37,403 bases of DNA from positions 1 to 37,403 of the forward strand of contig CANQKE010000026.1 in NCBI GenBank assembly GCA_947624435.1, in the 5' to 3' direction. This document shows positions 3,490 through 32,451 of the stretch, piece after piece; within the stretch, counting starts at the first letter, position 1; each line of letters begins with the position of its first letter. A program made the translations under genes and the position numbers. The notes below the pieces were generated by a model. That model was given only the letters and a program-made list of their open reading frames with translations, searched no databases and had not been told where the DNA came from. Source of the DNA: an uncultured Ruminiclostridium sp. Its GTDB lineage: Bacteria; Bacillota; Clostridia; Oscillospirales; Ruminococcaceae.

Positions 3490-3565
3490 TAAATATATAT
3501 GTCCGGCATTTCCTCTGAACCTAGGGATATCGGCATATTCTTTGACCCGGTTGGAGGTATATTCT

Positions 3566-4303
3566 ATGCGTATTGCGATTTGCGACGACGAGCAGCACGA
3601 GCGCGAACGGCTTGAACAAGCGCTGCAAGGCTGTGACGCCGCGTACAGCGCGGAAAAATTTGCCGACGGAGCTTCTTTGTTGGAGGCGACAAAAAAATCC
3701 ACTCCGTTTGATATTGTGTTTTTGGACATATATATGCCCGGTGAAAACGGCATAGATATAGCAAAAACGTTACGGCAGATATCTCCCGACGCCGGTATCG
3801 TATTTGTTACGACCAGCAGAGAACACGCCGTGGACGCGTTTTCTCTTTATGCCCTGCACTATCTGGTAAAGCCCGTTACGACAGACGGGATAGCGGAATC
3901 GCTGCGGCGGCTTACCCAGTCCCACCGCGAACAAAGAGAACGCATTACCCTTACGGTAGGCGCGGAAAGGCACACGGTCTTTCTCGACCAGATATGCTTA
4001 TTGCAAAACGATAATCACGCGGTGAATATAACGCTTTCTGACGGGCGCAGCCTTAAGGTCTGGATGTCGCTGGGCGAGATGGAAAAGAAAATGAACAAGA
4101 ACTTTCTTAAGATAAACCGCGGTATAATCGTCAATATGGACTATATCGAACAGATGAGGACAGACGTCTGCGTTATGCGCAGCGGGATAAGACTGCCCAT
4201 CGCGGTAAGGCAGAGCGCCGTGATACGCGGGGCTTATGATAACTATGTATTCGACCGGCTCGCCGGACGAAAAAACCTTACGGCAAAGGAGCCTGGATCA
4301 TGA
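3566..4303 (+). CDS. LytTR-family response regulator (AgrA/ComE/BlpR type)
   Basis: 245 residues from ATG 3566, with GGAGG at 3553-3557. The receiver domain (about 1-120) shows the acidic pocket CDDE near residue 7, phospho-acceptor D54 in FLDIYMPG, and conserved K102 in YLVKPV. The C-terminal half is a LytTR DNA-binding domain, recognised by the LKINRGIIVNMDYIEQM segment. LytTR regulators bind pairs of short direct repeats about two helical turns apart and often control bacteriocin, competence or virulence loci, or pyruvate transport. The gene overlaps the kinase gene by 4 nt (ATGA), so the two are translationally coupled partners. Its targets are not shown by the sequence; the paired boxes at 22153-22287 are one candidate. 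Confidence 0.93.
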   Translation: MRIAICDDEQHERERLEQALQGCDAAYSAEKFADGASLLEATKKSTPFDIVFLDIYMPGENGIDIAKTLRQISPDAGIVFVTTSREHAVDAFSLYALHYLVKPVTTDGIAESLRRLTQSHREQRERITLTVGAERHTVFLDQICLLQNDNHAVNITLSDGRSLKVWMSLGEMEKKMNKNFLKINRGIIVNMDYIEQMRTDVCVMRSGIRLPIAVRQSAVIRGAYDNYVFDRLAGRKNLTAKEPGS

Positions 4304-5670
4304 TCGCTTTTTTAGAAAATGCTCTGGGATTTATCGTGCAGTTTCTGCCCTGCGTTATCTTGATATTTCTGCCGTTCCCCGAAGAGGCGTTCCGCTTCAG
4401 ACGAAGAAATATATTCTTCTGGCTGTCGGTGATCTCGGTGGCGGTAGCCGTTTTGTTCTCGGCGGTATTATGCCTCAGAGATACGGAAAAATATCCTCAG
4501 CATATAGTCATATCCAATGCATTTATGCTTGCCGCCATACTGCTTATCTTAGCGGCGTATATCTGGCTGGTTCGGGAGTCGGTGATAAAAAAGCTGATGA
4601 TATTTTTTATAGTGATGTTCTACGGCGTAACGGTCTACATACTGGTAAACTCGACCTACGCGCTGATATTCCCGAATCAGATAGACACCACTATATACCC
4701 CTACACCGACCGGTTTTTGATCATGTTTGCCGCCGTCACCGCTCTGCTGCTTCCTATGATAATCGCGGCGGTGATAAATCCGCTGAAAGAATACGTCCAG
4801 CTGATAGAACCGAAGAACATGCGGCGCGAATTTTGTATCGTGACTTTTTCAACGCTGTTTTATTTTACCACGATGATATGCTGTGTGACGTTTTTCGGAA
4901 GCAAAGGGCTTTTGCAATACGTCCTGCTGCCCATGATATTCATGACGGCAAATCAGCTGCTGATATACTGGCTGATATTCAGAGAATCCGTTAGGCGCAA
5001 GCTGGACGGCGAGCAGCTCCACGCTATCGAGATAAGGCAGCTGCAATATGAAAAGATAGTAAACGACATGGAAAATACCCGCCGTATGCGCCACGATATG
5101 CGTCATCATTATAATTCGCTGAACGATATGCTCAGTCGCGGAAGATACGACGAAATGAAAGACTACCTGTCCCAGCTGATAGATACCACGGTAAAGTGCG
5201 ATGATAAGATGTACTGTAAAAACCTCACGGTGAACGGGCTGTTACAATATTACGTCGGTATGGCGAGGGACAGGGATATCAGCTGCGACGTCAGCGCGGA
5301 ATGCGACGAGCTTATGATAGAGCCGGCGGATCTTACCGTGCTGTTCGGCAACACGATGGAAAACGCAATAAACTCATGCGGGAAATACCCCGGCAAACGT
5401 CATATAGAAATACGGCTCGGTACGGTACACGGCTCGCTTGCGATAGAGATATCCAATTCCTGCAAGGAGGTAAATCTCGATAAGCGCTTTAGCTCGGAGG
5501 ACGGCTTTATGCCTGCCAACGCGTTTATAAGCAGCAGGAACGGCGGCGGATACGGACTTAGCAGTATCGCGCATACCGCGCAGAAATACGGCGGCAGCGC
5601 TAAATTCAGATTTGACGCGGAAAAAGAATTATTCACCGTTCGTATACGGTTGAATATGCACACGAATTAA
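4300..5670 (+). CDS. GHKL-type sensor histidine kinase (AgrC/BlpH-like HPK10 group)
   Basis: 456 residues. The N-terminal half (about 1-235) is a polytopic membrane sensor with roughly six or seven hydrophobic helices. It is followed by a coiled segment and the phospho-acceptor box RMRHDMRHHYNSL, with H265 the probable site, then an ATPase domain with the N-box (LFGNTMENAINSC) and a glycine box (NGGGYGLSSI). Large membrane sensors joined to a GHKL ATPase and paired with LytTR regulators typically sense secreted peptides, which fits the precursor-peptide array 2.5 kb away on the other strand; that link is inference. Partner of the preceding response regulator, and probably in one operon with the next three genes. 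Confidence 0.92.
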   Translation: MIAFLENALGFIVQFLPCVILIFLPFPEEAFRFRRRNIFFWLSVISVAVAVLFSAVLCLRDTEKYPQHIVISNAFMLAAILLILAAYIWLVRESVIKKLMIFFIVMFYGVTVYILVNSTYALIFPNQIDTTIYPYTDRFLIMFAAVTALLLPMIIAAVINPLKEYVQLIEPKNMRREFCIVTFSTLFYFTTMICCVTFFGSKGLLQYVLLPMIFMTANQLLIYWLIFRESVRRKLDGEQLHAIEIRQLQYEKIVNDMENTRRMRHDMRHHYNSLNDMLSRGRYDEMKDYLSQLIDTTVKCDDKMYCKNLTVNGLLQYYVGMARDRDISCDVSAECDELMIEPADLTVLFGNTMENAINSCGKYPGKRHIEIRLGTVHGSLAIEISNSCKEVNLDKRFSSEDGFMPANAFISSRNGGGYGLSSIAHTAQKYGGSAKFRFDAEKELFTVRIRLNMHTN

Positions 5671-5989: not shown

Positions 5990-7606
5990 ATGGCAAAGAA
6001 ACGGAAATTCAATCTTCAGCCGAAGCTGCTTATAGGTCTTGTACTTATGGCGATCGTGCTGATGTTTTCTCTCATATTCATTCTTATAATCATCTTCTGC
6101 GGCGTAATGTACCAATATTATTCGTGGGTAACATTCGACAACGCCTCCGTCTGCTCCTACGTCATCGACGGCGACCGCATAGAGCAGTATTACAATAACG
6201 GCAAGATAGGCGAAAAAGACGATTACTATGAAATGATAGGCGATTATCTGCTTGAAGTAAAAAATCAGGTCGGACTGCAATACCTGTATGTAGCCGTTCC
6301 GGAGCAGGACAACATAGTTTACATATGGGACGCGGGCGCTCCCGAAGAGGAGGGCATACATAAGCTCGGCGAATCGATACAGATGTTCGGCGAGATAAAG
6401 GACGTAATGCAGACAGCTTACGCGGGCGGCGCGGATATGCTCGACTCCGTACTATTCACCGAAAGCTCCGCCGTGGCTTTTGTTCCGCTGCTGAACAGTG
6501 ACAACAAGCCGGTGGCGCTGATAGCGGTAAGCATTCCTATCGAAAGAGTAAGCCGTCACGTCGAGACATTTACCGTGCTTGCGCTGATATCCACGATCGT
6601 CGTGATGCTGATCTCCTCATTCTTTTACTATCTTTATATCCGTAAAATACTTGTCCGTCCTTTGAGGAATCTCCATCATGCCGTTACCGGACTGGTAAGC
6701 GACAATATGGAACACCTCGACAGCTTCGACGTAAAAATCAAGACCAGGGACGAGGTAGGCGACCTTGCCAACGGATTTAATCAGATGGTGCAGGAGCTGA
6801 ATGAGTACATTAACAATCTCAGCCGCGTCACCGCGGAAAAAGAGCGTATAGGCGCGGAGCTTGACGTCGCTACTCATATCCAGAAGTCTATGCTTCCCTG
6901 CACTTTCCCGGCGTTCCCCGACCGAAAGGAGATAGACATATACGCCACCATGACCCCCGCAAAGGAGGTCGGCGGAGATTTCTACGACTTCTTTATGGTG
7001 GACGACAGACATCTTGCGATAGTAATGGCGGACGTTTCCGGCAAGGGCGTTCCCGCGGCGCTGTTTATGGTAATAGGCAAAACACTTATCAAAGACCATA
7101 CCGCCCCCGGTTCTGATCTCGGAGCGGTGTTCACCGAAGTAAACGATCTTTTATGCGAATCCAACAGTGAGGGATTATTTATAACGGCGTTCGAGGGCGT
7201 ACTTGACCTTGTCACCGGAGAATTTAATTATGTGAACGCGGGACACGAAATGCCGTTTATCTGCCGTTCGGGTGAAAATTTCGAGCCGTATAAGATAAAG
7301 GCGGGATTCGTACTTGCGGGCATGGAGGGAATGAGATACCGCGCGGGCAGCCTTACGCTTGCGCCGGGAGATAAGGTATTCCAGTACACCGACGGCGTTA
7401 CCGAGGCGACAAATTCCGACAACGAGCTTTACGGAATGGAAAGGCTGGAAAATGTGCTGAACCTTAACAAGGACAGCGCTCCTGCCGAGCTTCTTCCCAA
7501 GGTAAAAGAGGATATCGACGCGTTTGTAGGCGAGGCTCCTCAGTTTGACGATATAACAATGCTTTGTCTTGAATATAAAAGCAGAATGGAGGATAACAAT
7601 GAATGA
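5990..7606 (+). CDS. Membrane PP2C-family serine phosphatase with HAMP domain (RsbU/SpoIIE-like)
   Basis: 538 residues. TM1 (about 12-40), an extracellular sensor region (about 41-195), TM2 (about 195-220), HAMP (about 220-270, with RDEVGDLANGFNQM), then a SpoIIE-type PP2C domain. Metal-binding blocks are intact: KEVGGDFYDFF, MADVSGKGVPAAL, YTDGVTEA and FDDITMLCLEY. Expected job: dephosphorylate the STAS protein encoded 2 nt upstream in response to an external signal. The start codon lies directly after the antagonist stop with only a weak ribosome binding site, suggesting translational coupling. The sensor ligand cannot be told from the sequence. Confidence 0.92.
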   Translation: MAKKRKFNLQPKLLIGLVLMAIVLMFSLIFILIIIFCGVMYQYYSWVTFDNASVCSYVIDGDRIEQYYNNGKIGEKDDYYEMIGDYLLEVKNQVGLQYLYVAVPEQDNIVYIWDAGAPEEEGIHKLGESIQMFGEIKDVMQTAYAGGADMLDSVLFTESSAVAFVPLLNSDNKPVALIAVSIPIERVSRHVETFTVLALISTIVVMLISSFFYYLYIRKILVRPLRNLHHAVTGLVSDNMEHLDSFDVKIKTRDEVGDLANGFNQMVQELNEYINNLSRVTAEKERIGAELDVATHIQKSMLPCTFPAFPDRKEIDIYATMTPAKEVGGDFYDFFMVDDRHLAIVMADVSGKGVPAALFMVIGKTLIKDHTAPGSDLGAVFTEVNDLLCESNSEGLFITAFEGVLDLVTGEFNYVNAGHEMPFICRSGENFEPYKIKAGFVLAGMEGMRYRAGSLTLAPGDKVFQYTDGVTEATNSDNELYGMERLENVLNLNKDSAPAELLPKVKEDIDAFVGEAPQFDDITMLCLEYKSRMEDNNE

Positions 7607-8006
7607 ACTGACAATTGACGCGACGGTGGAAAATATCCCTACAGTCACGGATTTTGTAGACGAACAGCTCGAGGCTCACGGCTGCCCGATGAAAGCGCAA
7701 ATGCAGATAGACATCGCCATAGACGAGCTGCTCAGCAACATAGCATATTATGCCTACAGCTCCGGTTCGGGGACCGTCACCATCCGCGTGGAGATAGCCG
7801 AAGAGCCGCTTTCCGTTCTGATAACGTTCATAGACAACGGCGTACCTTACGACCCGCTAAAAAAAGAAGACCCCGATACCACGCTTTCCGTAGATCAAAG
7901 GGATATAGGCGGGCTTGGGATATACATGGTCAAAAAAAGCATGGACGGCGTCGAATACGAATATAAAGACGGTCAGAACGTTCTCAAAATAACCAAAAAA
8001 TTCTAA
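7599..8006 (+). CDS. RsbW-like anti-sigma / serine kinase ATPase (HATPase_c)
   Basis: 135 residues. Start ATG 7599 chosen because GGAGG (7588-7592) is 6 nt upstream; it overlaps the phosphatase gene by 8 nt. Bergerat-fold motifs: the N-box in IDIAIDELLSNIAYYAY, the G1 box with DNGVPYDP, and the G2 box GGLGIYMVKK. Proteins of this type phosphorylate the STAS antagonist and hold a sigma factor or another output protein inactive. No SigB-like gene follows. The only sigma gene in the window is the ECF-like one at 13795-14295 on the other strand, so the target of this switch is open. Confidence 0.9.
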   Translation: MNELTIDATVENIPTVTDFVDEQLEAHGCPMKAQMQIDIAIDELLSNIAYYAYSSGSGTVTIRVEIAEEPLSVLITFIDNGVPYDPLKKEDPDTTLSVDQRDIGGLGIYMVKKSMDGVEYEYKDGQNVLKITKKF

Positions 8007-8029: not shown

Positions 8030-8067
8030 GGCTTTTACACTTACGTTTTTACGATAGTGTAAAAGCC
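8030..8067 (-). terminator. Terminator at the end of the precursor-peptide operon (convergent, possibly bidirectional)
   Basis: GGCTTTTACACT (8030-8041) pairs perfectly with AGTGTAAAAGCC (8056-8067). Read on the minus strand the stem is followed by a CTCTTTTTATG T-rich stretch, so it best serves the leftward precursor operon ending at 8132. It also sits just after the rightward regulatory operon. Confidence 0.75.
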
Positions 8068-8131
8068 TTAAATTATTAGGTATTTAACGGTATAGGAATC
8101 ACATTTAGGTGAAAAAGTCGCTCACGCAACT

Positions 8132-8350
8132 TCAAATATACATAAACGTACTTCTTCCTCCGGCGACATTTTCAAGTGCGTCATCGGAAAGCTCCGTGCC
8201 GGAACGCAGCATATCGTACAGCTCTTTGGCCTTTTCCTCGGAAAGCTCGACTCCGTTTTCCTTTGCCAAAGCTATAAGCTCCTCCGGAGACTTTGCTTTA
8301 TTAAGCTTTTTCAAAAACTCCTCTTTAGTCATAATAGTCTGTTCAGCCAT
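8132..8350 (-). CDS. Nif11-leader precursor peptide 1, core RSTFMYI
   Basis: 72 residues. Residues 1-65 form a Nif11/NHLP-type leader: an EEFLKKL helix, then SPEELIALAKENG, then ELSDDALENVAGG. The double-glycine cleavage site leaves a core of only seven residues, RSTFMYI. AAAGGAG precedes the ATG at good distance. It is the last gene of the array, directly before the terminator. Such a short core cannot carry a lanthionine ring and looks more like a signalling or modified short peptide. The role is inferred only. Confidence 0.88.
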   Translation of the reverse strand: MAEQTIMTKEEFLKKLNKAKSPEELIALAKENGVELSEEKAKELYDMLRSGTELSDDALENVAGGRSTFMYI

Positions 8351-8411
8351 TTTTTATTTTCTCCTTTCGGTGCTTTTTTGAAACAAAATTGCCGGTACTC
8401 AAAACGCAAGC

Positions 8412-8642
8412 TCAAACGTGAGTACGGAACGGACCTATACGGTCGCCGCCTCCTCCTCCGAGCCAGTATCCGCCCGCAACAGAGTCAAGCTGTTCATCGG
8501 AAAGCTCGCCGCCGCTTAGCTGCTCGAAAAGCTCTTCTGCCTTTTCGGGAGCAATTTCAATGCCGCTTTCCTTAGCAAGCGCGATAATATCGTCGGCGGA
8601 TTTTACGCCTTTAAGCCTTGCTAAAAATTCTTCCTTGTTCAT
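8412..8642 (-). CDS. Nif11-leader precursor peptide 2, Gly-rich core
   Basis: 76 residues: a 58-residue leader starting MNKEEFLARLKGVKSADD and ending DSVAGG, then the core YWLGGGGGDRIGPFRTHV (18 residues). The leader is almost identical to that of peptide 3, showing recent duplication, but the core is completely different, which is common in leader-conserved peptide families. Ribosome binding site AAAGGAG. The Gly5 run and Tyr-Trp start are unusual; cleavage inside the run at a second Gly-Gly is possible. Confidence 0.87.
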   Translation of the reverse strand: MNKEEFLARLKGVKSADDIIALAKESGIEIAPEKAEELFEQLSGGELSDEQLDSVAGGYWLGGGGGDRIGPFRTHV

Positions 8643-8952
8643 ATCATTTGCTCCTTTAGTTGATCAATGATCAATGGTATGTCCAGATGCTCATGCCGCC
8701 CGCGACGTTTTCCAGCTGCTCGTCGGAAAGCTCATTGCCGCTCATCTGCTCGAAAAGCTCTTTCGCCTTGTCGGGAGCAATTTCAATGCCGCTTTCCTTA
8801 GCAAGCGCGATAATATCGTCGGCGGATTTTACGCCTTTAAGCCTTGCTAAAAATTCTTCCTTGTTCATATCATTTGCTCCTTTAGTTGATCAATGATCAA
8901 TGGTATGTCCAGATGCTCATGCCGCCCGCGACGTTTTCCAGCTGCTCGTCGG
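8545..8952 (-). repeat. Tandem direct repeat, two ~182-bp near-identical units
   Basis: 8545-8726 and 8771-8952 match essentially base for base at an offset of 226. Each unit spans part of a leader gene, its ribosome binding site, a 15-bp palindrome TTGATCAATGATCAA (8660-8674 and 8886-8900) and the 3' end of the next precursor gene including the MSIWTYH codons. This explains why peptides 3 and 4 share the same core. Confidence 0.85.
8671..8868 (-). CDS. Nif11-leader precursor peptide 3, core MSIWTYH
   Basis: 65 residues: a 58-residue leader (MNKEEFLARL...ENVAGG) plus the seven-residue core MSIWTYH. Core identical to peptide 4 from the neighbouring copy. AAAGGAG precedes the start. The stop codon overlaps a 15-bp palindrome in the gap to peptide 2. 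The short aromatic core lacks Cys and has one Ser and one Thr. Confidence 0.88.
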   Translation of the reverse strand: MNKEEFLARLKGVKSADDIIALAKESGIEIAPDKAKELFEQMSGNELSDEQLENVAGGMSIWTYH

Positions 8953-9094
8953 TCAATTCGCCGCCGCTCAGCTTATCGAAAAGCTCCTTTGCCTTATCGG
9001 GAGCGATCTCTAAGCCGTTTTCTTTTGCAAGAGCGATAACGTCATCGACGGACTTTACGCCTTTCAGCTTGGCTAAAAAATCTTCCTTGTTCAT
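8897..9094 (-). CDS. Nif11-leader precursor peptide 4, core MSIWTYH
   Basis: 65 residues from ATG at 9094; the frame is open 11 codons further, but AAGGAG lies just upstream of this ATG (CGAAAGGAGCTTAAACAAATG). The leader differs from peptide 3 by several substitutions (for example KSVDDVIALAKENG, ELTDEQ), yet the core MSIWTYH is identical, so the core may be under selection or freshly copied by the tandem duplication. Confidence 0.88.
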   Translation of the reverse strand: MNKEDFLAKLKGVKSVDDVIALAKENGLEIAPDKAKELFDKLSGGELTDEQLENVAGGMSIWTYH

Positions 9095-9170
9095 TTGTTT
9101 AAGCTCCTTTCGTAAGGTGGGTGGCATACGGGCGTCAGCCGAAAAAGCATCGTCCCGTATGCCTGAACTT

Positions 9171-9398
9171 TTAGTATTTATACACCGCGATCCATACGTC
9201 CGGACCTAAAAGATCGGCAAGGTCTTTTCTTCCGCCCGCAACATTGTCAAGCTCGTCGTCGGATAACTCGTTTATCTTGTCGAAAACCTCCTTTGCCTTA
9301 TCGGGAGCGATCTCTAAGCCGTTTTCCTTAGCAAGCGCGATAATATCATCGACGGACTTTGCATTCGTCAGCTTTTTGATAAATTCTTCCTTGTTCAT
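9171..9398 (-). CDS. Nif11-leader precursor peptide 5, core ending VWIAVYKY
   Basis: 75 residues: a 56-residue leader (MNKEEFIKKLTNAKSVDD...DNVAGG) and the 19-residue core RKDLADLLGPDVWIAVYKY. No Cys. The core ends in an aromatic/aliphatic tail, as do cores 1, 3 and 4, and is preceded by a short charged helix. The stretch 9095-9170 between this gene and peptide 4 holds only its neighbour's ribosome binding site and no extra gene. Confidence 0.87.
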   Translation of the reverse strand: MNKEEFIKKLTNAKSVDDIIALAKENGLEIAPDKAKEVFDKINELSDDELDNVAGGRKDLADLLGPDVWIAVYKY

Positions 9399-9426
9399 AA
9401 GTTTGACCCTCTCTTTTAATAAGTCG

Positions 9427-9672
9427 TTAAAGTTGGATCTTTATGATCTGTCCGTGACCCTCCGCATAACAGCAGTCTTCGCAGTTATAACCGCTGGTGC
9501 CGCCGGAACGGATATATACTATCCTCTTTGAACCGCAGTTCGGACAGCCGTTCGCCCAACTTCTTATATATTCGGGAGAACCCTCTTTCGGAAGCGACTT
9601 GTCATTCGATCCGCCCGAAACGCTTTCAAGCTGGTCGTCGAGAAGCTCCGCGTTTTTATCCGATCTCTCCAT
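9427..9672 (-). CDS. Short-leader precursor peptide 6 with zinc-ribbon-like core
   Basis: 81 residues. Only the last part of a leader is present (ELLDDQLESVSGG, residues 9-21); the Nif11 helix is missing. The 60-residue core has CPNCGS near its middle and later CEDCC, the C-x2-C...C-x2-C spacing of a zinc ribbon. Ribosome binding site AAGGAG just upstream. It lies in the same operon, 12 nt downstream of peptide 7. Could be an exported zinc-binding or disulfide-linked peptide; the function is unknown to me. Confidence 0.82.
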   Translation of the reverse strand: MERSDKNAELLDDQLESVSGGSNDKSLPKEGSPEYIRSWANGCPNCGSKRIVYIRSGGTSGYNCEDCCYAEGHGQIIKIQL

Positions 9673-9684
9673 AACAGTTTCTCC

Positions 9685-9975
9685 TTAAGACTTTCTTTCC
9701 ACGCCGAAAAAGTCGCCTATAACGTATACGGTTTTCTTTACTTCCTCCCAGACGCCTTTGAAAAAGTCTGTAAAACCACTTCCGCCGGCAACGCCCTCGA
9801 GCGCGTCGTCGGAAAGCTCGCCCTCGGCATGCAGCTGGTCATACAGATTTTGAGCTTTCTCGGGGGTAAGCTCGACATTGTACGCTTTAACTATCTTTAT
9901 CAATTCTTCCGGAGAATTTGCGGCCGTCAACTGAGCCCTAAATTCTTCCTCGGTGAGTTTTCTTTTTTCTTCCAT
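9685..9975 (-). CDS. Nif11-leader precursor peptide 7, amphipathic helical core
   Basis: 96 residues: a 65-residue leader (LTEEEFRAQLTAANSPEEL...EGVAGG) and a 31-residue core rich in Phe, Trp, Lys and Val (starts SGFTDFFKGVWEEVKK, ends FFGVERKS). The pattern suggests an amphipathic helix, as in unmodified class II bacteriocins. No Cys. It begins a sub-family (peptides 7, 8, 9, 11 and 12) whose leaders carry H(A/S)EGEL before the GG. Confidence 0.87.
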   Translation of the reverse strand: MEEKRKLTEEEFRAQLTAANSPEELIKIVKAYNVELTPEKAQNLYDQLHAEGELSDDALEGVAGGSGFTDFFKGVWEEVKKTVYVIGDFFGVERKS

Positions 9976-9997
9976 GGTAATTCCTCCTTAAGCCGCT

Positions 9998-10372
9998 TTA
10001 ATCCTTCTTAGTCATAGCTGATACGGCTGCGCTCGTGGAAACTTTTGCTAAAGACTTTGTAAAGTCTGCGAAGCCCTCGAAATATTCGGGTACGTCCTTT
10101 GTGAAGAAGTCCTTTACATCTTTTGTGAAGAACGTTTCTAAGCTCTTTGCCGCTTTTGAAAACCAGTCGCCGATAGCGCTGCCGCCGGAAACGCCCTCCA
10201 GCTCATCGTCGGAAAGCTCGCCCTCGGCGTGCATCATATCATACATCTTCTGTGCGTTTTCGGGGGTAAGCTCCGCGTCGTATTTTTTAGCGAACGCTAT
10301 AAGCTCCTCCGGGGATTTCGCGCTCATTAACTGAGCCTGGAATTCTTCCCTAGTAAATACTTGTTCTGCCAT
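9998..10372 (-). CDS. Nif11-leader precursor peptide 8, long helical core with FFTKDV repeats
   Basis: 124 residues: a 64-residue leader ending EGVSGG and a 60-residue core. The core contains ETFFTKDVKDFFTKDVPEYF, an internal duplication of FFTKDV, followed by an Ala/Ser/Thr/Lys-rich tail ending MTKKD. Amphipathic, no Cys. Closely related to peptide 9; the upstream gap contains the GACC/GGTC hairpin and a strong AAAGGAGG. Confidence 0.88.
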   Translation of the reverse strand: MAEQVFTREEFQAQLMSAKSPEELIAFAKKYDAELTPENAQKMYDMMHAEGELSDDELEGVSGGSAIGDWFSKAAKSLETFFTKDVKDFFTKDVPEYFEGFADFTKSLAKVSTSAAVSAMTKKD

Positions 10373-10391
10373 GGTAATTATCCTCCTTTAT

Positions 10392-10410
10392 CGACCGTAA
10401 ATTGTGGTCG
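10392..10410 (-). repeat. Intergenic hairpin directly upstream of the peptide 8 ribosome binding site
   Basis: CGACC (10392-10396) pairs with GGTCG (10406-10410). Almost the same element (GACC, AT-rich loop, GGTC, then TAAAGGAGGATAA) occurs upstream of peptide 11 (11550-11572) and in a mismatched form upstream of peptide 9 (about 10801-10823). It starts a few bases after the stop codon of the preceding gene. Confidence 0.6.
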
Positions 10411-10414
10411 TTTT

Positions 10415-10780
10415 TTACATTAAGCCTAAACCTTTTGCCGCCTCGCCAACTATGACTTTAGCGGTAGTTTCATATGCATCCGGTAACGTTTCGGTAAAGA
10501 ACTCGGGTACGTCCTTTGTGAAGAAGTCCTTTACATCTTTGCTAAAGAATTTATCTATAGACTTGACAACGTCGGTGAGCCAGCAGCCGCCGGAAACGCC
10601 CTCAAGCTGATCGTCGGAAAGCTCGCCCTCGGCGTGCATGGAATCAAATAATTTCTGCGCGTTTTCCGGGCTTAACTCCGCGTCGTACACCTTAGCGAAC
10701 GCTATAAGCTCCTCCGGGGACTTCGCGTTCATCAACTTCTCCTGAAATTCTTCTCTGGTGAGTGTTCTTGCCTCTTCCAT
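10415..10780 (-). CDS. Nif11-leader precursor peptide 9, long helical core with FFTKDV repeats
   Basis: 121 residues: a 65-residue leader ending EGVSGG and a 56-residue core starting CWLTDVVKSIDKFFSKDV and continuing KDFFTKDVPEFF, then a helical tail ending GLGLM. A paralogue of peptide 8; they share the SKDV/TKDV duplication but diverge after it. The single Cys right after GG could be free, or could take part in modification. Confidence 0.88.
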   Translation of the reverse strand: MEEARTLTREEFQEKLMNAKSPEELIAFAKVYDAELSPENAQKLFDSMHAEGELSDDQLEGVSGGCWLTDVVKSIDKFFSKDVKDFFTKDVPEFFTETLPDAYETTAKVIVGEAAKGLGLM

Positions 10781-10836
10781 AGTAAATTATCCTCCTTTAT
10801 AGATCGTAAATTTTTATGGGTCGTTTTTGCCCAAAA

Positions 10837-11124
10837 TTATTCAAAATTATATCCGCAGAACTTACATACATAATGATATGCCTTTGTAGGCATGCCCTTT
10901 GGTATAAGCCGGGAAGCAGTCACCTGCGCTATCTCAATATCATATTTGCCGCACATAGGGCATCTTGACGGCTTTTCGGGAACAGCGCTGAGCGGCGTGC
11001 GTGAATCGGAGCCGTATATCTCTTTTCCTGCCGGTGTTTGCACTTCAAACCACATGCCGCTGCCGCCCGATGCCGCTTCAAGCTCTTCATCGGAAAGCTC
11101 GTTTGTTTTTTCCTCTTTGCTCAT
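10837..11124 (-). CDS. Short-leader precursor peptide 10 with zinc-ribbon-like core
   Basis: 95 residues. The leader is only 21 residues (TNELSDEELEAASGG at its end), without the Nif11 helix. The 74-residue core has RCPMCGKYD and, near the C-terminus, CKFCGYNFE, giving a C-x2-C...C-x2-C arrangement. With peptide 6 it forms a short-leader sub-group. Translation start is supported by a ribosome binding site and by 15-nt spacing to peptide 11. Confidence 0.83.
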   Translation of the reverse strand: MSKEEKTNELSDEELEAASGGSGMWFEVQTPAGKEIYGSDSRTPLSAVPEKPSRCPMCGKYDIEIAQVTASRLIPKGMPTKAYHYVCKFCGYNFE

Positions 11125-11139
11125 AATTATCCCTTTCTA

Positions 11140-11529
11140 TTACAAGCTTACATACTTGCCGCAGTGCTTGCACTTGGTCTTTTTAACGCCGAACTGCCAT
11201 TCTTCCGTAAAGCCCTCGCGCGAGCCGCATTTCGGGCAATTATCGCCGTAGAAAATATCTTTGAATTTGTCGCTTATTGCATCACCTAATGATTCAAACG
11301 TTTTTTTCAAGTCCTTGAAAAAGCTGCCTATGCTTCCTCCGGCTACGCCCTCAAGCTCATCGTCGGAAAGCTCGCCCTCGGCGTGCAGAGCATCAAACAA
11401 TTTCTGCGCGTCTTCCGGGCTCAGCTCTAGGCTGCATTCATTAGCGAACGCTATCAGATCCTCCGGAGACTTTGCTTTCTTTAACAGCTCCTTGATCTCT
11501 TCATCGGTGATTTTTTTTGCTTCTTCCAT
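11140..11529 (-). CDS. Nif11-leader precursor peptide 11, helix plus zinc-ribbon-like core
   Basis: 129 residues: a 65-residue leader ending EGVAGG and a 64-residue core. The core first has an amphipathic segment (SFFKDLKKTFESLGDAIS), then CPKCGSREG and CKHCGKYVSL, a complete C-x2-C...C-x2-C ribbon. It thus joins the two core types seen separately in peptides 7-9 and 6/10. AAAGGAGG precedes it, with the GACC/GGTC hairpin before that. Confidence 0.87.
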   Translation of the reverse strand: MEEAKKITDEEIKELLKKAKSPEDLIAFANECSLELSPEDAQKLFDALHAEGELSDDELEGVAGGSIGSFFKDLKKTFESLGDAISDKFKDIFYGDNCPKCGSREGFTEEWQFGVKKTKCKHCGKYVSL

Positions 11530-11549
11530 AGTAAATTATCCTCCTTTAT

Positions 11550-11572
11550 CGACCGTAAATTTTTTGGGGTCG
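11550..11572 (-). repeat. Intergenic hairpin directly upstream of the peptide 11 ribosome binding site
   Basis: CGACC (11550-11554) pairs with GGTCG (11568-11572); loop AT-rich. Second good copy of the element described at 10392-10410, with the same flanking TAAAGGAGGATAATTTAC context on the minus strand. Confidence 0.6.
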
Positions 11573-11604
11573 TTTTTGCTTGTTTTTTTGCCGTATCGGC
11601 GAAA

Positions 11605-11994
11605 TTAAACCACTATCTGCCCGTAAATCTCAGTTTTTCTTAGTCTCTTTATCACATACTGGCAGTTGCCGCAAATGGTTTTTATAACTCCCTTGTCGCT
11701 CTGCTGGTAGCTCTTGCGCGAACCGCACTTCGGGCAATTCTCACCTACAAACAGATCAGCTATTTTGTCGCCGAGATTCTTAAAGAAGTCTATAAAAGCA
11801 CTTCCGCCCGCAACGCCGTCTAACTGCTCGTCGGCAAGCTCGCCCTCGGAGTGCAGTGCCGCGAACATGGCCTTAGCGTCCTGCTCGCTTATAGTTACTC
11901 CGTTGCCATCTGCGATAGCGATAAGCTCTTCGGGAGATTTTGCCGCCTTGATCTTAGTCAAGATCTCCTCGTTTGTTATTGTTTTCTCTTCCAT
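11605..11994 (-). CDS. Nif11-leader precursor peptide 12, helix plus zinc-ribbon-like core
   Basis: 129 residues: a 64-residue leader (ITNEEILTKIKAAKSPEEL...DGVAGG) and a 65-residue core with SAFIDFFKNLGDKIADLF, then CPKCGSRKS and CGNCQYVIKR. A close relative of peptide 11 in layout, with a longer basic C-terminal tail. The CPKCGSR sequence is shared by peptides 11 and 12. Confidence 0.87.
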   Translation of the reverse strand: MEEKTITNEEILTKIKAAKSPEELIAIADGNGVTISEQDAKAMFAALHSEGELADEQLDGVAGGSAFIDFFKNLGDKIADLFVGENCPKCGSRKSYQQSDKGVIKTICGNCQYVIKRLRKTEIYGQIVV

Positions 11995-12050
11995 GGTTTT
12001 TCCTCCTTTAGAATATTTAACTGTTTATTTGTAATGCTTGAAACAGCATT

Positions 12051-12485
12051 TTAATGTACCCACGTATAACCGCAGTTGCAGCATTTATAGTTATACTGAC
12101 CGCCCGCCTGAACAGATACGCCAAGCTCTTCTTTAGTGTTTATTGAGCCGCAGCTGGGGCATTTTACGTATTTTAGCAGCCTGTCTATACCCTCGCCCGC
12201 GAGCTTAAACGCTTCCGGCACATCTTTCGTGAATACTTTTTCTACGGCTTTAGCCGCTTTTTTTATTCCCTCTCCTATGTCGCAGAAGATGCATCCGCCC
12301 GAAACCTCAGCAAGCTCATCGTCGGAAAGCTCGCCCATAGCCATCGCGCTTTCGTACATCTTCTTTGCGGTCTCCTCGCTTACGGTAACGCCGTTTTCTT
12401 TAGCAAGCGCCATTACCCCCTCGGGAGAACCCGCCTCTCTGAATTTCGCAAACAGTTCTTCTTGGCTTATAGTTTTTTCTTCCAT
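12051..12485 (-). CDS. Nif11-leader precursor peptide 13, longest core with helix, FTKDVPE and zinc ribbon
   Basis: 144 residues: a 64-residue leader ending AEVSGG and an 80-residue core. The core starts CIFCDIGEGIKKAAKA, has VFTKDVPEAFKLA (the motif of peptides 8 and 9), then CPSCGS and CCNCGYTWVH. It combines all long-core modules and is the first precursor gene after the condensation-fold gene, 25 nt downstream of it. Confidence 0.87.
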   Translation of the reverse strand: MEEKTISQEELFAKFREAGSPEGVMALAKENGVTVSEETAKKMYESAMAMGELSDDELAEVSGGCIFCDIGEGIKKAAKAVEKVFTKDVPEAFKLAGEGIDRLLKYVKCPSCGSINTKEELGVSVQAGGQYNYKCCNCGYTWVH

Positions 12486-12510
12486 ATTAATACCTCCTTA
12501 TGGAAATTAA

Positions 12511-13779
12511 TTACATCTTTAAGTTAGGACAAACAAGCGGCTCTTCATCGTCTGCGGTCGCCTGTATGCCTGCCTGTCTTAACTGCTCCGCAAAGCCGTC
12601 CGACAGCGCGTTTCCTGCAAATTCCTGTAAAAACGTAATGCAGAAGTTGCCGCCCACGGCGTTTACTTCAAATAATACATGGCTCGCGGCAGGGTCTACG
12701 TAGGTAAATATCGACTTTATATAAGGCTCTAACGCGCCGAGCTGCTGTATATGTACATAGCTTACGGTGAGGTCTACGAACACCCTGTTCATCTGCGATG
12801 ACTTTTGAAACGCCTCATGCACCGCGTCGTAATCGCCGAGCGCTAATATCTTTTGTTCCTTTTGCAATCGGTTCTTCACCGCGTTCAGCATATATTCCTG
12901 TGAGGACTGGTAATCCATCATCTGACGGGTAACGCCGCACAGCTTATCCATCGGCATATTTCTCATCTGCTCGGTATAATTCAGCACGATATTGCCCAGC
13001 ACGTTGTTGTGCGCTTTGGGAGCTTTTACCGCGTCGCGGTAGTTTTTCATAAGTACCGTTCTGAACGGGTGGCTTAGCTTCTCGCAAAGATCGTATACCG
13101 TTTTCGCCAGCAGATTCGACATCACTATCGCGGGAGTGCCGCCGTTTGCCTTGACGTACTTCATGAACTCGTCCTCCGGCACCGACATTCTGCGCGCCGT
13201 TTTACAAACGGGACAGCCGGGGAGTATCTCCTCCCATTGCACGGCGGGCTCGGCGGCCTGCGGATTGTGCTTAGGAGTTTCTTCTTTTGCAGGCTCTATA
13301 TCAAGATACGGGTCTCTTCGCTCCTCCTCTGTGACCGGAACATCTAATGTTCGTATACCGTCCGCGGGAAAGCTTGTTTTGTATTTTTCGGTTATATAGT
13401 AATACAGCGTGGTTTTGATAAACTCCAGTATTCCCGTTTCGTCGGTTATCGAATGCACTATATCAAAATATACCGTGCTGCCCTCATAATTTACCGCAAG
13501 CGCGTGCTCGTTCGACTGTTCGGAAAGCAGCAGCACCGGAGTTATCCCCTCGGTCATAACTATCTGCTTATCGTTAGGCAGTACCGAATGTAAAAGCTCG
13601 CCCTCTTCACGGACAAATTTTACCGAATAATAATCGTAACGCTTTATAGCGATATCCACCGCCTTGCGCAAAGCGGCGGGGTCTATATTCTCGCCCAGCT
13701 CCACCGCCGTTCTTACGGTGTGCTGTACGTTTTCGTCGGAACGGTAAAACCCCGATATCCCCGACGGATTGTTCTTCAT
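12511..13779 (-). CDS. Condensation / acyltransferase-fold protein of the peptide cluster
   Basis: 422 residues. The overall pattern (N-terminal SGFYRSDENVQHTVRTAVELGENIDPAALRKAVDIAIKR-like start, then a VHSITDETG motif with H109 and D113, then a late FEVNAVGGNFCITF strand) fits the CoA-dependent acyltransferase / NRPS condensation superfamily, close to alcohol acetyltransferase-like proteins. The usual HHxxxD box is reduced to VHxxxD, keeping the second, catalytic His. A CPVC pair (189-192) lies in a linker. It sits between the sigma factor and the precursors, 15 nt from the former. It could acylate peptides, act as a carrier/chaperone, or be inactive; the sequence does not decide. Confidence 0.7.
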   Translation of the reverse strand: MKNNPSGISGFYRSDENVQHTVRTAVELGENIDPAALRKAVDIAIKRYDYYSVKFVREEGELLHSVLPNDKQIVMTEGITPVLLLSEQSNEHALAVNYEGSTVYFDIVHSITDETGILEFIKTTLYYYITEKYKTSFPADGIRTLDVPVTEEERRDPYLDIEPAKEETPKHNPQAAEPAVQWEEILPGCPVCKTARRMSVPEDEFMKYVKANGGTPAIVMSNLLAKTVYDLCEKLSHPFRTVLMKNYRDAVKAPKAHNNVLGNIVLNYTEQMRNMPMDKLCGVTRQMMDYQSSQEYMLNAVKNRLQKEQKILALGDYDAVHEAFQKSSQMNRVFVDLTVSYVHIQQLGALEPYIKSIFTYVDPAASHVLFEVNAVGGNFCITFLQEFAGNALSDGFAEQLRQAGIQATADDEEPLVCPNLKM

Positions 13780-13794: not shown

Positions 13795-14295
13795 TTAACC
13801 GGTATAACCCGCTTCTTCTAAAAAACGTCTGAGCTTTTTTAATGCGCTGTACTGTAAAAATCTCACGTTGGAGTAGCTTACGCCGACGCGCTCCGCCGTT
13901 TCCTTTGAGGAAAGTCCGTGATAAAATCTAAGCACTATTATCTTTCGTTCTCTGTCCGGCAATTGTTCTAACGCTAACGCTAAGGATTCAAGATTCTCGT
14001 TTGTTAATATCCTGTCGTCCTGAGCCGGTATAAACTGCATAAGCTCGATATCTTCGGCCGCAGGCTCGCGGGAGAGCTTTCTGTAATAATCGTTTACCGC
14101 GTTTCTTGTTATCGCGTACAGCCATGTGCCTATCGCGCCGCGCGACGGGTCGTAGCTTTCAAGAGCGGAGATGGCGTTCAAAAACACCTGATGCACTATA
14201 TCGGCTCTGTCATGCTCGTTTTGCACATGGGAGCATATATATCTTTCTACCTTTTCGCGGTAACCGTTATACAGCTCTTCGGGGGTGATGGTCAT
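13795..14295 (-). CDS. ECF-type RNA polymerase sigma factor
   Basis: 166 residues, typical ECF length. Region 2 covers about residues 10-75, including DIVHQVFLNAISALESYD and GTWLYAITRNAVNDYYRK (the -10 recognition helix). Region 4 is about 105-160, with LPDRERKIIVLRFYHGLSSKETAERVGVSYSNV (helix-turn-helix). The start overlaps the stop of the 62-residue gene by 4 nt (ATGA), so the two are coupled; no classical membrane anti-sigma gene is next to it. Placed inside the peptide operon, it most likely controls that operon. Also compare the partner-switching module at 5691-8006, which lacks an obvious sigma. Confidence 0.9.
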   Translation of the reverse strand: MTITPEELYNGYREKVERYICSHVQNEHDRADIVHQVFLNAISALESYDPSRGAIGTWLYAITRNAVNDYYRKLSREPAAEDIELMQFIPAQDDRILTNENLESLALALEQLPDRERKIIVLRFYHGLSSKETAERVGVSYSNVRFLQYSALKKLRRFLEEAGYTG

Positions 14296-14480
14296 GGCTT
14301 TTCATCGCCTCCCGTTTCGGCGCGCCACGTTTCATTCTCTCCCGCGGCGTTAAGCTCAAGGTCGCTGTCGTCCAGAGGTACGCCCATGTCCTCCGTGCGC
14401 ACTATCTTTTCAAGGCGTTCGTTCTTTTGGAACCTTTGAAAATCAAACAATGCGCGCAGCAGTTTTTCGCTCCTATCCAT
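14292..14480 (-). CDS. Small leader-like protein upstream of the sigma factor
   Basis: 62 residues, with AGGAGGG before the ATG. It is charged and largely helical; the C-terminal part LDDSDLELNAAGENE resembles the end of the precursor leaders (ELSDDELEGVAGG) but has Ala-Ala-Gly instead of Gly-Gly. Its 4-nt overlap with the sigma gene suggests a functional pair: it could be a small anti-sigma or co-regulator, or a degenerate precursor. I do not recognise a family. Confidence 0.65.
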   Translation of the reverse strand: MDRSEKLLRALFDFQRFQKNERLEKIVRTEDMGVPLDDSDLELNAAGENETWRAETGGDEKP

Positions 14481-14579: not shown

Positions 14580-16790
14580 TCAGGTCTGGCTGACCGGCTC
14601 TTTATTGTCAAGACGCTGACGGGCTACCAGCTCGGCAAATTTCCCGTTCAAGGCTATAAGCTCGTCGTAAGTGCCCTCTTCGGCGATCTTGCCGTTTTCA
14701 AGATATATTATCCGGTCGCACTGCTTTATGGTGGAAAGCCTGTGCGCTATCACTATCCTTGTACATTTAAGGCTGTTCAGCGAATCGGAAACGGTCTTTT
14801 GGGTGATGTTGTCCAGCGCGCTGGTCGCCTCGTCGAACATAAGTATCTTAGGCCTCGGCGCTATCGCTCTGGCTATCATAAGGCGCTGGCGCTGACCGCC
14901 GGAAACGCCGCCGCTGCCCTCTGAGATGATAGTGTTCATGCCCATAGGCATTCTGCGTATATCCTCCGCTATGCCGGAAAGCTCCGCCGCCTCCCACGCT
15001 TCGTCCATAGTGAGCCACGGCGCGGAAATGGTGATGTTAGAGAATATATCCCCCTGGAACAGCTTGCCGTTTTGCATTACCGTTCCTATACTGCGGCGCA
15101 ATGATTTAAGGTCAAGGCTGGAAATATCCTTGCCGTCGTAATATACCGAGCCTTTCTGCGGAGTTTCAAAACCCAGCATTACTCTCATAAGCGTAGACTT
15201 GCCGCAGCCGGTAGTTCCTACTATCGCGACATACTGACCCGGCCGTATCTTAAGCGACAGATCGTCAAGGACGTTGGGCATGCTGTCGCTGTAGCGGAAC
15301 GAAACGTTGTTAAGCTCTATCCCGCCGGAAAGCCTTGTCACTACTTCCTTGCCCTCGGATATTTCGGGCACCGCGTCAAGTATCGGCTTTGCCATATCCA
15401 ATACCGGCTTGATATTCGCCGCGGTGAGCGCTATCCCCGCAAGTGCCATGAACGCGCCGGACACCATGCCGTACGCGGTATTGAACGCGTAGTAATCCGC
15501 TACCGATACGTTACTTACCACCGCTAGATAATACATAACGAATGTTCCCGCAAGGCTTATAATAGTAGTGAATACCGCGTTGTATCTTATTAAAGTCGGC
15601 GGGTCGTACAGCAGCTTTGCCTGTTTTGAGTACAGGCTGCCCCATTTGGCGAACGCGCGCCGTTCCGCACCGGACAGCTTTATCTTCTGAACGCCGGTTA
15701 TCAGCGCATAATCAAGACCGCTGACCTTAGCGCCCTGCTCCATCTGCTGCTTTGATATCCTCATCTGAGCCAGTGCGCTTATCACCGAAAACAGCACCGT
15801 AACAATTATTATTATCAGCGCGGGAACCACCAGCGTCGGCGCAAACGCAAATATCTGCGCGATATACACCAGTGAGAACACCGAGGTAAGACCGGTCGAA
15901 AGCACCGTATCCACCAGCATGGAGCATATCATATTTATGTACTGCGTTCTGACCGACAGCTCGCCGGAGCTGTATTTTTTGAAAAACGACGCGGGCAATG
16001 ACATGACGCGCGCCATGGTCGCCGCCTGTACGGTGACGTCCATTTTAGTGCGTATCCTCGCCATAATAAGCGATTTTATCGTGCTTATCATCAGTGTGGA
16101 TATTGACAGGCATATCATAAACACCGCTATAGACATAAGCAGCGTAAGCTCCTTATTATCCACTACCAGACCGAAAAGCAGCTGATTGAGCTTAGGGCTC
16201 AGCATACCTACAACGGTAGCGGCCAGCGTCACCGTTGCCGCTATCAGATAATCCGATACCGACAGGATACCGGCTATGTATTTCAGCAGGCTGCCTATAC
16301 TTATCTTTTTTAACGGGAACGGCTTGTAAAAGGCGATAGCGTCCTCCTCAAACAGCCCCTCGTTCTTTTTGGATATCTTAACAGTCTTACCTGTTGCGCG
16401 GTCGTAGTATGAATACCCCGACATACCGCTGGGTATCAGTGCGGCAACGCTGCCGTCCGACTTCATCACCGCGAGCATTGCTCCGAACGCGTCCTTGTAC
16501 CACCCTTTTTCAAGGGTGACGTTTCTGCGCATGATACCGTGCGGCCGCATGAGATATTCAAGCTGCTCGTTGGTATCCTTTATCGTATCCGGTACATCTT
16601 TCGATCTCGTTTTGATATGATAATAGCTTAGTATCTCGTCGATCGCGTCCTTAGCGCGGCTCTTATCGTCGGCGAACGCGTCGGATATATGCGTGCCGGT
16701 CACCGCGTCGGATATGCTTATAAACGCCTCCTCGAAGGTGCTGAGGTCTTTTTCCTTTCGCTGTTTTATCTGTTCATCGAACCAACCCAT
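14580..16790 (-). CDS. NHLM-type ABC transporter, permease-ATPase without active peptidase
   Basis: 736 residues. The N-terminal ~160 residues are soluble and lack the C39 cysteine motif; a transmembrane region with about six helices follows (about 165-460). The C-terminal ATPase has Walker A IVGTTGCGKSTL, signature SGGVSGGQRQRL, Walker B ILMFDEATSALD and the switch His in IVIAHRLST. The layout matches the second ABC subunit of NHLM (nitrile-hydratase-leader microcin) bacteriocin systems, which pairs with a C39-bearing subunit. It is 12 nt downstream of that subunit here. Role: export of the leader-processed peptides encoded downstream. Confidence 0.9.
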   Translation of the reverse strand: MGWFDEQIKQRKEKDLSTFEEAFISISDAVTGTHISDAFADDKSRAKDAIDEILSYYHIKTRSKDVPDTIKDTNEQLEYLMRPHGIMRRNVTLEKGWYKDAFGAMLAVMKSDGSVAALIPSGMSGYSYYDRATGKTVKISKKNEGLFEEDAIAFYKPFPLKKISIGSLLKYIAGILSVSDYLIAATVTLAATVVGMLSPKLNQLLFGLVVDNKELTLLMSIAVFMICLSISTLMISTIKSLIMARIRTKMDVTVQAATMARVMSLPASFFKKYSSGELSVRTQYINMICSMLVDTVLSTGLTSVFSLVYIAQIFAFAPTLVVPALIIIIVTVLFSVISALAQMRISKQQMEQGAKVSGLDYALITGVQKIKLSGAERRAFAKWGSLYSKQAKLLYDPPTLIRYNAVFTTIISLAGTFVMYYLAVVSNVSVADYYAFNTAYGMVSGAFMALAGIALTAANIKPVLDMAKPILDAVPEISEGKEVVTRLSGGIELNNVSFRYSDSMPNVLDDLSLKIRPGQYVAIVGTTGCGKSTLMRVMLGFETPQKGSVYYDGKDISSLDLKSLRRSIGTVMQNGKLFQGDIFSNITISAPWLTMDEAWEAAELSGIAEDIRRMPMGMNTIISEGSGGVSGGQRQRLMIARAIAPRPKILMFDEATSALDNITQKTVSDSLNSLKCTRIVIAHRLSTIKQCDRIIYLENGKIAEEGTYDELIALNGKFAELVARQRLDNKEPVSQT

Positions 16791-18989: not shown

Positions 18990-18996
18990 GCGCACC

Positions 18997-22328: not shown

Positions 22329-22470
22329 TAGCTTGGATTATTGCGGTTATTTGTATTTAGAAATACTCAAAACAGCGATAACTAACGAGCAATAAATGCG
22401 GACTTTTCTGCATTTGTCGCATATAAAAACGCGTATAAAAAGCGCGCAAATCAAGAAAAGGAGAAAACAA

Positions 22471-32253: not shown

Positions 32254-32291
32254 AATTTTCTTCCTTTCCTGATAGTGGATATTTCTTTATT

Positions 32292-32320
32292 ATTGTATCA
32301 CAAATCGGGGGAAATGTCTA
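32292..32320 (-). promoter_or_regulatory. Sigma-A type promoter of metY
   Basis: On the minus strand TAGACA (32320-32315), 17-bp spacer, TACAAT (32297-32292), about 39 bp upstream of the start codon. Confidence 0.7.
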
Positions 32321-32411
32321 TAGGGCAATTGAGGTGTGGGAGGGAAAAGGCAAAATTCGAGTTCGTTCCGGTTTGAATGCAGCAAATGCAAACCTCCTAA
32401 AAAATAATTTG

Positions 32412-32451
32412 ACCTTCGGAAGACTCAGCAATAAATGAGTCTTCCGAAGGT
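32412..32451 (-). terminator. Terminator of the AT-rich minus-strand cluster
   Basis: ACCTTCGGAAGACTCA (32412-32427) pairs over 16 bp with TGAGTCTTCCGAAGGT (32436-32451). On the minus strand it is followed by CAAATTATTTTTT. It lies 76 bp downstream of the last gene of the cluster. Confidence 0.8.

Follow-up and report, generated by a model that had tools for sequence, protein, structure and literature searches.

A thirteen-gene array of Nif11-leader precursors with an NHLM exporter and no recognised maturase in an uncultured Ruminiclostridium

Introduction

The closest described relatives of the locus treated here are the NHLM/Nif11-derived peptide (N11P) systems. In the parts of Haft et al. 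(2010; PMC2887384) on which we draw, their precursors have Nif11 leaders ending in GG, form paralogous arrays and carry hypervariable cores, and the leader end is likened to that of class II bacteriocins. For the lah cluster of Lachnospiraceae C6A11, the portions used of two further papers describe a C39 transporter tolerant of core sequence (PMC6363468) and a recognition rule for LahT, namely hydrophobic residues at leader positions -4, -7 and -12 (PMC10885120). Here we describe an array of thirteen such precursor genes (p1 to p13) with an NHLM exporter, in a 37,403-nucleotide stretch of DNA (contig CANQKE010000026.1, positions 1–37403; hereafter, the window) from an uncultured Ruminiclostridium sp. 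The reading we favour, with moderate confidence, is that this is an NHLM/Nif11 export operon that has lost its maturase and whose cores would be secreted largely unmodified. Genomes and loci used for comparison carry our own labels (G and L numbers).

Results

The precursor array, its leaders and its exporter

Thirteen small open reading frames (ORFs), all intact, occupy 8132–12485 of the minus strand. A scan of ORFs of at least 40 amino acids (aa) across the window returned thirteen with a GG motif, every one inside the array, and dinucleotide shuffles of 8101–12500 (n = 200) returned none, in agreement with an earlier sequence-only reading that had described thirteen consecutive minus-strand genes. 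A Shine-Dalgarno-like stretch was recognised by eye upstream of all thirteen and is weakest at p5 and p10; for p4 the upstream sequence makes a start at 9094 most likely, as against 9127 in the ORF list.

The Nif11 leader profile TIGR03798 matches 11 of the 13 precursors (E ≤ 3.3e-5), five of the 13 above the curated cut-off. The same profile search gave no match for p6 and p10, whose leaders are 21 residues long with the C39 recognition segment included; the other leaders span 56–65 aa. The sequence-only reading had counted eleven full Nif11/NHLP-type leaders and two shortened ones and had called for a search with leader models, which bears it out; the leader ends it listed were counted as VAGG in eight genes, VSGG in four and ASGG in one. 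Positions -4 (V or A), -7 (L) and -12 (L) from the predicted cut are hydrophobic in all thirteen. Judged from these sequences, the p6 and p10 leaders are cases in which the C39 segment alone appears to be retained; hardly longer than that segment, they fit a system in which the Nif11 part is not required by any maturase.

In order of transcription, the minus-strand operon comprises a short NHLM secretion (HlyD-like) protein of 173 aa (18997–19518), an NHLM ABC transporter with a C39 peptidase (16803–18995), NHLM ABC transporter subunit 2 (ABC2; 14580–16790), a conserved 62-aa ORF (14292–14480), an extracytoplasmic function (ECF)-type sigma factor (13795–14295; TIGR02937 110.2 bits), a stand-alone condensation-like protein (hereafter, Cond; 12511–13779) and the thirteen precursors. 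The sigma factor, the 62-aa ORF and Cond are absent from the sequence-only reading. The C39 exporter and second NHLM ABC gene named there both lie above their curated cut-offs (TIGR03796 944.8 bits against 853.3; TIGR03797 719.9 bits against 709.4); the secretion protein it also named does not, reaching 39.7 bits against 156.2 for TIGR03794 with a match that spans only model positions 1–65 of 421. By profile score, two of the three genes place the system among NHLM exporters.

Core peptides

The cores are of several unlike kinds. Those of p1 (8132–8350; 65-aa Nif11 leader, TIGR03798 41.6 bits), p3 (8671–8868) and p4 (8897–9094) have seven residues each, RSTFMYI in p1 and the identical MSIWTYH in p3 and p4. 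The p2 core (8412–8642), YWLGGGGGDRIGPFRTHV, has 18 residues and a near-identical copy in both L131 and L132, and the p5 core (9171–9398), RKDLADLLGPDVWIAVYKY, has 19. Amphipathic cores are found in p7 (9685–9975), p8 (9998–10372) and p9 (10415–10780), the last two with an FFTKDVPE segment. A zinc-ribbon motif is present in the cores of p6 (9427–9672) and p10 (10837–11124), the two genes with 21-aa leaders. It is combined with a predicted helix in p11 (11140–11529) and p12 (11605–11994), and with a predicted helix and an FTKDVPE segment in p13 (12051–12485). Seven of the 13 cores contain no Cys, and six of those seven have at most four Ser or Thr residues.

Hydrophobic moments were calculated for 15 segments picked by eye, some of them from relatives, against 2000 shuffles each, and 11 of the 15 beat their shuffles (at most 2.4% of 2000 as high). 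By this measure p7–p9 and the first parts of p11–p13 are amphipathic, with moments reached by 0.05–1.8% of 2000 shuffles. The ribbon motif, CPxCG...CxxC, occurs in five of the 13 cores (p6, p10, p11, p12 and p13), its four Cys invariant in all five; the sequence-only reading does not mention it. A model of p11 (predicted local distance difference test, pLDDT, 61.9) has three leader helices, a low-confidence region at the GG, two helices, and three strands at the ribbon. FFTKDVPEFF and its variants recur in the cores of p8, p9 and p13 and in L131 and L132, and because such segments recur across different cores, the cores look modular. The view that leaders are conserved and cores variable, first put forward from the sequence alone, holds up: a shared Nif11 match and GG ends are set against several core kinds.

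Search for a maturase

The genome (2.35 Mb, 62 contigs, 99.96% complete) was searched for known maturase classes. No LanC protein was found above cut-off genome-wide, the one match scoring 17.2 bits against 23.2, and YcaO gave no match genome-wide, while five control genomes do match. SPASM gave a single match genome-wide, the SCIFF maturase (TIGR03974 719.9 bits, cut-off 425), an enzyme common to most Clostridia. With the Nif11-associated radical-SAM enzyme of same-genus G015 as query, the best match here was again the SCIFF maturase, at 24.3 bits. There are 20 radical-SAM proteins at E ≤ 0.01, of which 16 pass the curated cut-off of a named family (MiaB, RimO, HemZ, HemW, MtaB, TIGR03960, PflA, TIGR01212, two RlmN-type, HydG, HydE, SCIFF, TIGR04100, NrdG and YgiQ); apart from SCIFF, none of the other 15 is a named peptide maturase. 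A Pfam scan of eight window proteins and 33 of the 46 unassigned proteins near precursor-bearing NHLM loci that lack a radical-SAM relative matched 59 families, and the 25 of these that were listed include no maturase. The sequence-only reading had seen no maturase at the locus and had proposed a genome-wide search; no known one was found at the locus, and for the classes tested (LanC, YcaO and SPASM, the last yielding SCIFF only) the genome gives none either.

A maturase acting in trans might modify some of the cores, most likely the Cys-rich ones. Candidates would be the SCIFF maturase, four radical-SAM proteins outside the named families (L151, L161, L162 and L163) or an enzyme of a class beyond those searched. 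A maturase need not be clustered with the Nif11/NHLP precursors in whose genome it occurs (PMC2887384, in the parts drawn on here), and in G015 and G148 a radical-SAM enzyme accompanies related arrays whose cores contain CPxCG. Against this stand the SCIFF maturase as sole SPASM protein and the seven Cys-free cores, six of them also poor in Ser and Thr. We regard modification in trans as rather unlikely.

Radical-SAM enzymes and cysteine in related systems

TIGR03797 matches at E ≤ 1e-100 in 77 of 396 genomes. The NHLM loci compared were the 46 best places, window included (45 at ≥ 660 bits, one truncated). Within 9 kb, 21 of these have a recognised precursor, 13 a radical-SAM relative, 22 an RsbW- or PP2C-like gene, and five a Cond relative, one of which (L104) is only 23% identical. 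Eighteen genomes were searched whole for the G015 enzyme: G015, G213, G148, G044, G113, G003 and G020 match at ≥ 243 bits, and G000, G204, G304, G094, G291, G222, G369, G396, G401, G403 and G407 give ≤ 45 bits or no match. The 44.6-bit match in G204, counted as lacking the enzyme, is to another radical-SAM protein.

Of the cores accompanied by a dedicated radical-SAM enzyme 35 of 39 bear Cys, against 18 of 72 of those without one (Fisher 2e-11, overstated since precursors within a genome are not independent; per-locus Mann-Whitney 4e-4, 14 versus 9 loci). For six of the 14 loci with the enzyme (L103, L104, L105, L107, L108 and L113) it is known only as a BLAST relative at the locus. The comparison drops duplicates (L039 = L135, L106 = L132, L109 = L143), four loci whose genome-wide radical-SAM status was unset (L095, L096, L097 and L115; 11 precursors, six with Cys), a second system of the window's own genome (L041, its one core bearing Cys) and L099 (from G222; one core, Cys-bearing and truncated at the end of its contig); adding L041 and L099 gives 20 of 74 without the enzyme. 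The first GG beyond residue 15 served as a crude core boundary. Precursors were counted with a profile built from this system, which misses divergent ones and recovers 12 of the 13 here. The association fits a loss of thioether chemistry, with the ribbon Cys surviving for another reason. Together with the seven Cys-free cores, these counts lend indirect support to one part of the sequence-only reading, that the cores may be largely unmodified.

Regulatory genes

Beside the array, on the plus strand, lie an RsbW-like anti-sigma kinase (7569–8006; PF13581 78.4 bits) and a HAMP plus SpoIIE/PP2C phosphatase (RsbU-like; 5990–7606; PF07228 153.4 bits). An inverted repeat at 8030–8067 (17-nt arms, 88% complementary) forms a hairpin that separates the array from the convergent RsbW-like gene and is a possible bidirectional terminator. 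It was not listed by the consensus terminator scan; such scans were uninformative here, with 21 promoters against 13.6 (standard deviation 3.8) in shuffles and 13 terminators against 14.7.

The 62-aa ORF has relatives in L039, L080, L082, L102, L109, L111, L131, L135, L136, L138, L142 and L143 (L039 and L135, like L109 and L143, being the same contigs). It ends in LxDxxLxxxAAG(E/D), which resembles a GG leader end but has Asn or Tyr at -4. From its sequence it may act as an anti-sigma factor or mimic a leader. It was rejected as a fourteenth precursor, the leader profile giving at most 3.5 bits (E 0.077, 14 sequences) and position -4, as read by eye, being Asn (Tyr in L082).

A LytTR response regulator and GHKL histidine kinase are encoded at 3542–5670 on the plus strand, and in relatives this pair stays with a CstA-like transporter (here 19577–21025). 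The pair bears on whether the peptides act mainly as signals (pheromones) or on the host rather than against bacteria. The seven-residue aromatic cores would suit signals, occurring as they do in identical copies (MSIWTYH twice here and three times in L131, with RCIWTYH in L132) near a kinase and regulator and with no immunity gene seen. The kinase/regulator pair, however, stays with CstA in all four relatives in which the exporter has been lost (see below), so it is not tied to the peptides; on that ground it was rejected as a pheromone sensor, and we consider a mainly signalling or host-directed role improbable.

The condensation-like protein

The motif HxxxDxxG is invariant in all 13 aligned Cond sequences, the window copy included. 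With a poor Cond model (pLDDT 51.5), Foldseek ranks condensation domains of non-ribosomal peptide synthetases first (E 1e-7, probability 1.00), with template modelling (TM) scores of only 0.2–0.3. PF00668 matches three of 13 Cond relatives weakly and the window copy not at all. A PDB sequence search with the Cond profile returned three weak matches. Two are to SPT16 (E 0.0086 and 0.0089) and were regarded as chance; the third (E 1.4), which covers the Cond motif region, is to 1l5a, an 'amide synthase' that we take to be VibH, a stand-alone condensation enzyme. By motif and predicted fold, Cond is assigned to the condensation superfamily.

A search with four NHLM-linked copies as query, which reaches close relatives only, gave 13 loci, all in metagenome-assembled genomes (MAGs). 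Seven have an exporter and precursors (L131, L132, L135, L136, L138, L142 and L143); in these and the window, eight distinct genomes, Cond lies directly before the precursors, and the sigma factor precedes it except in L132. In four others (L137, L139, L140 and L141) Cond follows CstA by 86–98 bases. Exporter, phosphatase, sigma factor, small ORF and recognisable precursors are all absent from these four loci, and their genomes gave no NHLM ABC2 match (E ≤ 1e-100; the completeness of these MAGs is not given). In the remaining two, from Lachnospiraceae, Cond lies elsewhere, and ABC2 is below cut-off (L133, one 352-bit match) or has no match (L134).

Upstream of Cond, over roughly the last 12 codons of the sigma gene, L137 and L141 retain 56 and 55 of 60 bases as in L142; ungapped, the same region gives 47 of 60 in L139 and 41 of 60 in L140. 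The sigma-gene remnant in L137 and L141 shows that the cassette was deleted there. The downstream junction common to L139 and L141 alters the last two Cond residues, and the junctions of L137 and L140 differ. Cond is intact in all four, with pairwise dN/dS (ratio of nonsynonymous to synonymous substitution rates) of 0.13–0.44 (six pairs), compared with 0.09–0.18 (10 pairs) among five exporter-bearing relatives, and constraint on it may thus be somewhat looser after exporter loss. On a tree, three changes of the exporter label are needed. As to the other neighbours, the GHKL/LytTR pair and CstA are kept with Cond in these four loci and the phosphatase is lost in all; the RsbW-like gene is gone from L139 and L141, and about half of it is matched in L137 and L140.

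Position and motif make Cond attractive as a maturase that would N-acylate the cores, or otherwise transfer acyl groups onto them, to give ribosomal lipopeptides. It is contradicted by the exporter-deletion genomes, by L133 and L134, and by a same-genus locus in G204 that has an exporter, a sigma factor and ten GG ORFs with no Cond at the locus (the rest of the G204 genome was not searched for it). That Cond is kept where exporter and precursors are gone, and that the G204 locus lacks it, argues against such a function. Cond is probably not the maturase, an optional role remaining compatible with this distribution, and we hold the lipopeptide proposal to be very unlikely. The suggestion in the sequence-only reading that the cores are possibly acylated is not supported: Cond, which that reading had overlooked, is the sole acyltransferase-like gene of the operon.

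Array turnover and selection

In L131, whose Cond is 96% identical, there are 22 precursor ORFs; as two of them look like fragments of a single gene with a broken frame, this makes about 21 genes against 13 here. The six other exporter-bearing Cond loci have 2–8 precursors each. Most window precursors have a counterpart in L131, where the cores of p1, p3, p4 and p5 are identical and those of p10, p11 and p12 are more changed. For 11 pairs, dN/dS is 0.15 in the leader and 0.48 in the core; p4 and p7, which have no clear orthologue, are dropped, and with them the values are 0.21 and 0.46. By these ratios the leaders are under purifying selection and the cores are looser, with dN/dS not above 1. 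The spacers at 10373–10414, 10781–10836 and 11530–11604, before p8, p9 and p11, are repeated, with a small inverted repeat of the type CGACC...GGTCG, and are a trace of unit duplication.

That the array is a relic decaying since the loss of its maturase is the least probable of the readings weighed: same-genus G015 has a radical-SAM enzyme not found here, cores evolve faster than leaders, whole arrays are deleted in relatives and one L131 precursor is frame-broken, but all thirteen ORFs are intact behind leaders under purifying selection, four short cores are unchanged in L131, and array size varies, reaching about 21 genes in L131.

Other features of the genome and window

The second NHLM system of the same genome (L041:7272–13822) comprises one GG precursor with a hydrophobic core, an 852-aa ABC2, a C39-ABC transporter, an HlyD protein above cut-off (179 against 156.2 bits) and a sigma factor, with no radical-SAM relative or Cond adjoining. 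A very large 5'-nucleotidase/metallophosphoesterase protein repeatedly adjoins the locus, at 22396–25902 here and at L111:14474–17623, L039:7178–11131, L106:2198–5596 and L109:14213–18169. At 32000–37403 the G+C content drops to 0.32–0.36; the proteins at 32527–33558 (no Pfam match) and 35855–37216 are a related pair flanking a haloacid dehalogenase (HAD)-type protein at 33999–35756, and the region is, by composition and content, probably acquired DNA.

Discussion

In the favoured reading, export without modification, the C39 domain of the exporter would recognise all thirteen leader peptides through the last ~12 leader residues, cut after the GG and pass on the cores largely as translated. 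These would comprise aromatic peptides of very few residues, amphipathic helices, and mini-proteins that join a helix to a zinc ribbon. The helical cores would serve membrane-active competition among gut bacteria, much as class II bacteriocins do, and the ribbon cores would bind zinc or close by disulphide outside the cell; the products are thus probably membrane-active (bacteriocin-like) peptides together with metal-binding mini-proteins. Expression would be set by the ECF sigma factor of the operon and the adjacent phosphatase/anti-sigma pair.

Several points weigh against this picture. Four of the 15 segments (p2, p5, one from L131 and one from L142) are no more amphipathic than chance. The best Foldseek match of the p11 model (E 0.44) is not a ribbon; TFIIB-type and other small zinc ribbons appear only at E ≥ 1.0, with root-mean-square deviations of ~1.5–3 Å, which is not significant, and no Pfam ribbon model scores above its cut-off on the ribbon cores. 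Some genomes without the radical-SAM enzyme keep Cys-bearing cores (six of 13 in the window; nine of 22 ORFs in L131, two of which are pieces of one gene). On the enzyme side, four of the 20 radical-SAM proteins pass no family cut-off; the LanM N-terminal domain PF13575 has no match, a weak result since it has none in the control genomes too; and the maturase search left out ATP-grasp ligases, methyl-, prenyl- and glycosyltransferases and LanB. No immunity gene was recognised among the window ORFs looked at, in which no dedicated immunity-model search was made; a missing immunity gene is unusual for bacteriocins.

More tentatively, and somewhat short of an even chance in our judgement, this branch of Nif11/NHLM systems may serve without a maturase as a general secretion route for many unmodified payloads, folded zinc-ribbon mini-proteins among them, the export tag staying fixed while the cores behind it are exchanged and duplicated as modules, and the 62-aa leader-like protein could report exporter occupancy to gene expression. 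Zinc-ribbon peptides would be a cargo of a new kind for a C39 exporter. In the open-licence PMC literature, as titles and the starts of abstracts, none of the matches listed concerned zinc-ribbon GG-leader cores or a maturase-free NHLM/Nif11 array; within that scope, it is new for a Nif11 array both to lack a maturase and to carry zinc-ribbon cargo. Nif11 leaders are generally read as the sign of a modified natural product; if the present cores are secreted unmodified, annotations of that kind call for caution, and similar arrays would have products obtainable by plain peptide synthesis. Close genomes with the enzyme (G015) and without it (the window, G304) offer a direct test of what a long leader is for when there is no maturase.

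Among known systems, N11P loci, as presented in the parts of PMC2887384 used here, share the Nif11 leaders up to the GG, the paralogous arrays with hypervariable cores and the TIGR03794/03796/03797 exporter. They differ in that no thiazole/oxazole-modified microcin (TOMM) enzyme, LanM or dedicated radical-SAM enzyme was found here, and in their cores, which are Cys/Gly/Ser-rich tails as opposed to zinc-ribbon motifs and Cys-free helices. The lah cluster (LahT; PMC6363468, in the portions used) likewise comes from gut Clostridia and has Nif11-leader precursors, nine of them, with diverse cores; LahA is a class II lanthipeptide precursor (PMC10885120, in part), whereas no LanC-type enzyme above cut-off is present in our genome. 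Of the same family are the radical-SAM-associated precursors of G015, G148 and G044, which have Nif11 leaders, an NHLM exporter in G015 and G044, and Cys-bearing cores, several with CPxCG. G015 also has a sigma factor and the small ORF on a second contig, where its exporter lies too (L080), apart from the radical-SAM enzyme. They differ from the window in that dedicated enzyme, which is nearest to TIGR04250 ScmE though far below its cut-off, and in having Cys in nearly all cores. Class II bacteriocins, described in the part of PMC12648078 used as unmodified and acting largely on membranes, share a GG leader and a dedicated transporter; both the GG leader motif and a C39 exporter gene are present here. 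Their leaders are short, compared with 56–65 aa here except in p6 and p10, and the present system has the two-ABC NHLM exporter, no recognised immunity gene and zinc-ribbon cores. By leader, the peptides, 11 of the 13 with a profile match, are classed as Nif11 precursors; by analogy, they would be class II bacteriocins only in the sense of how they work.

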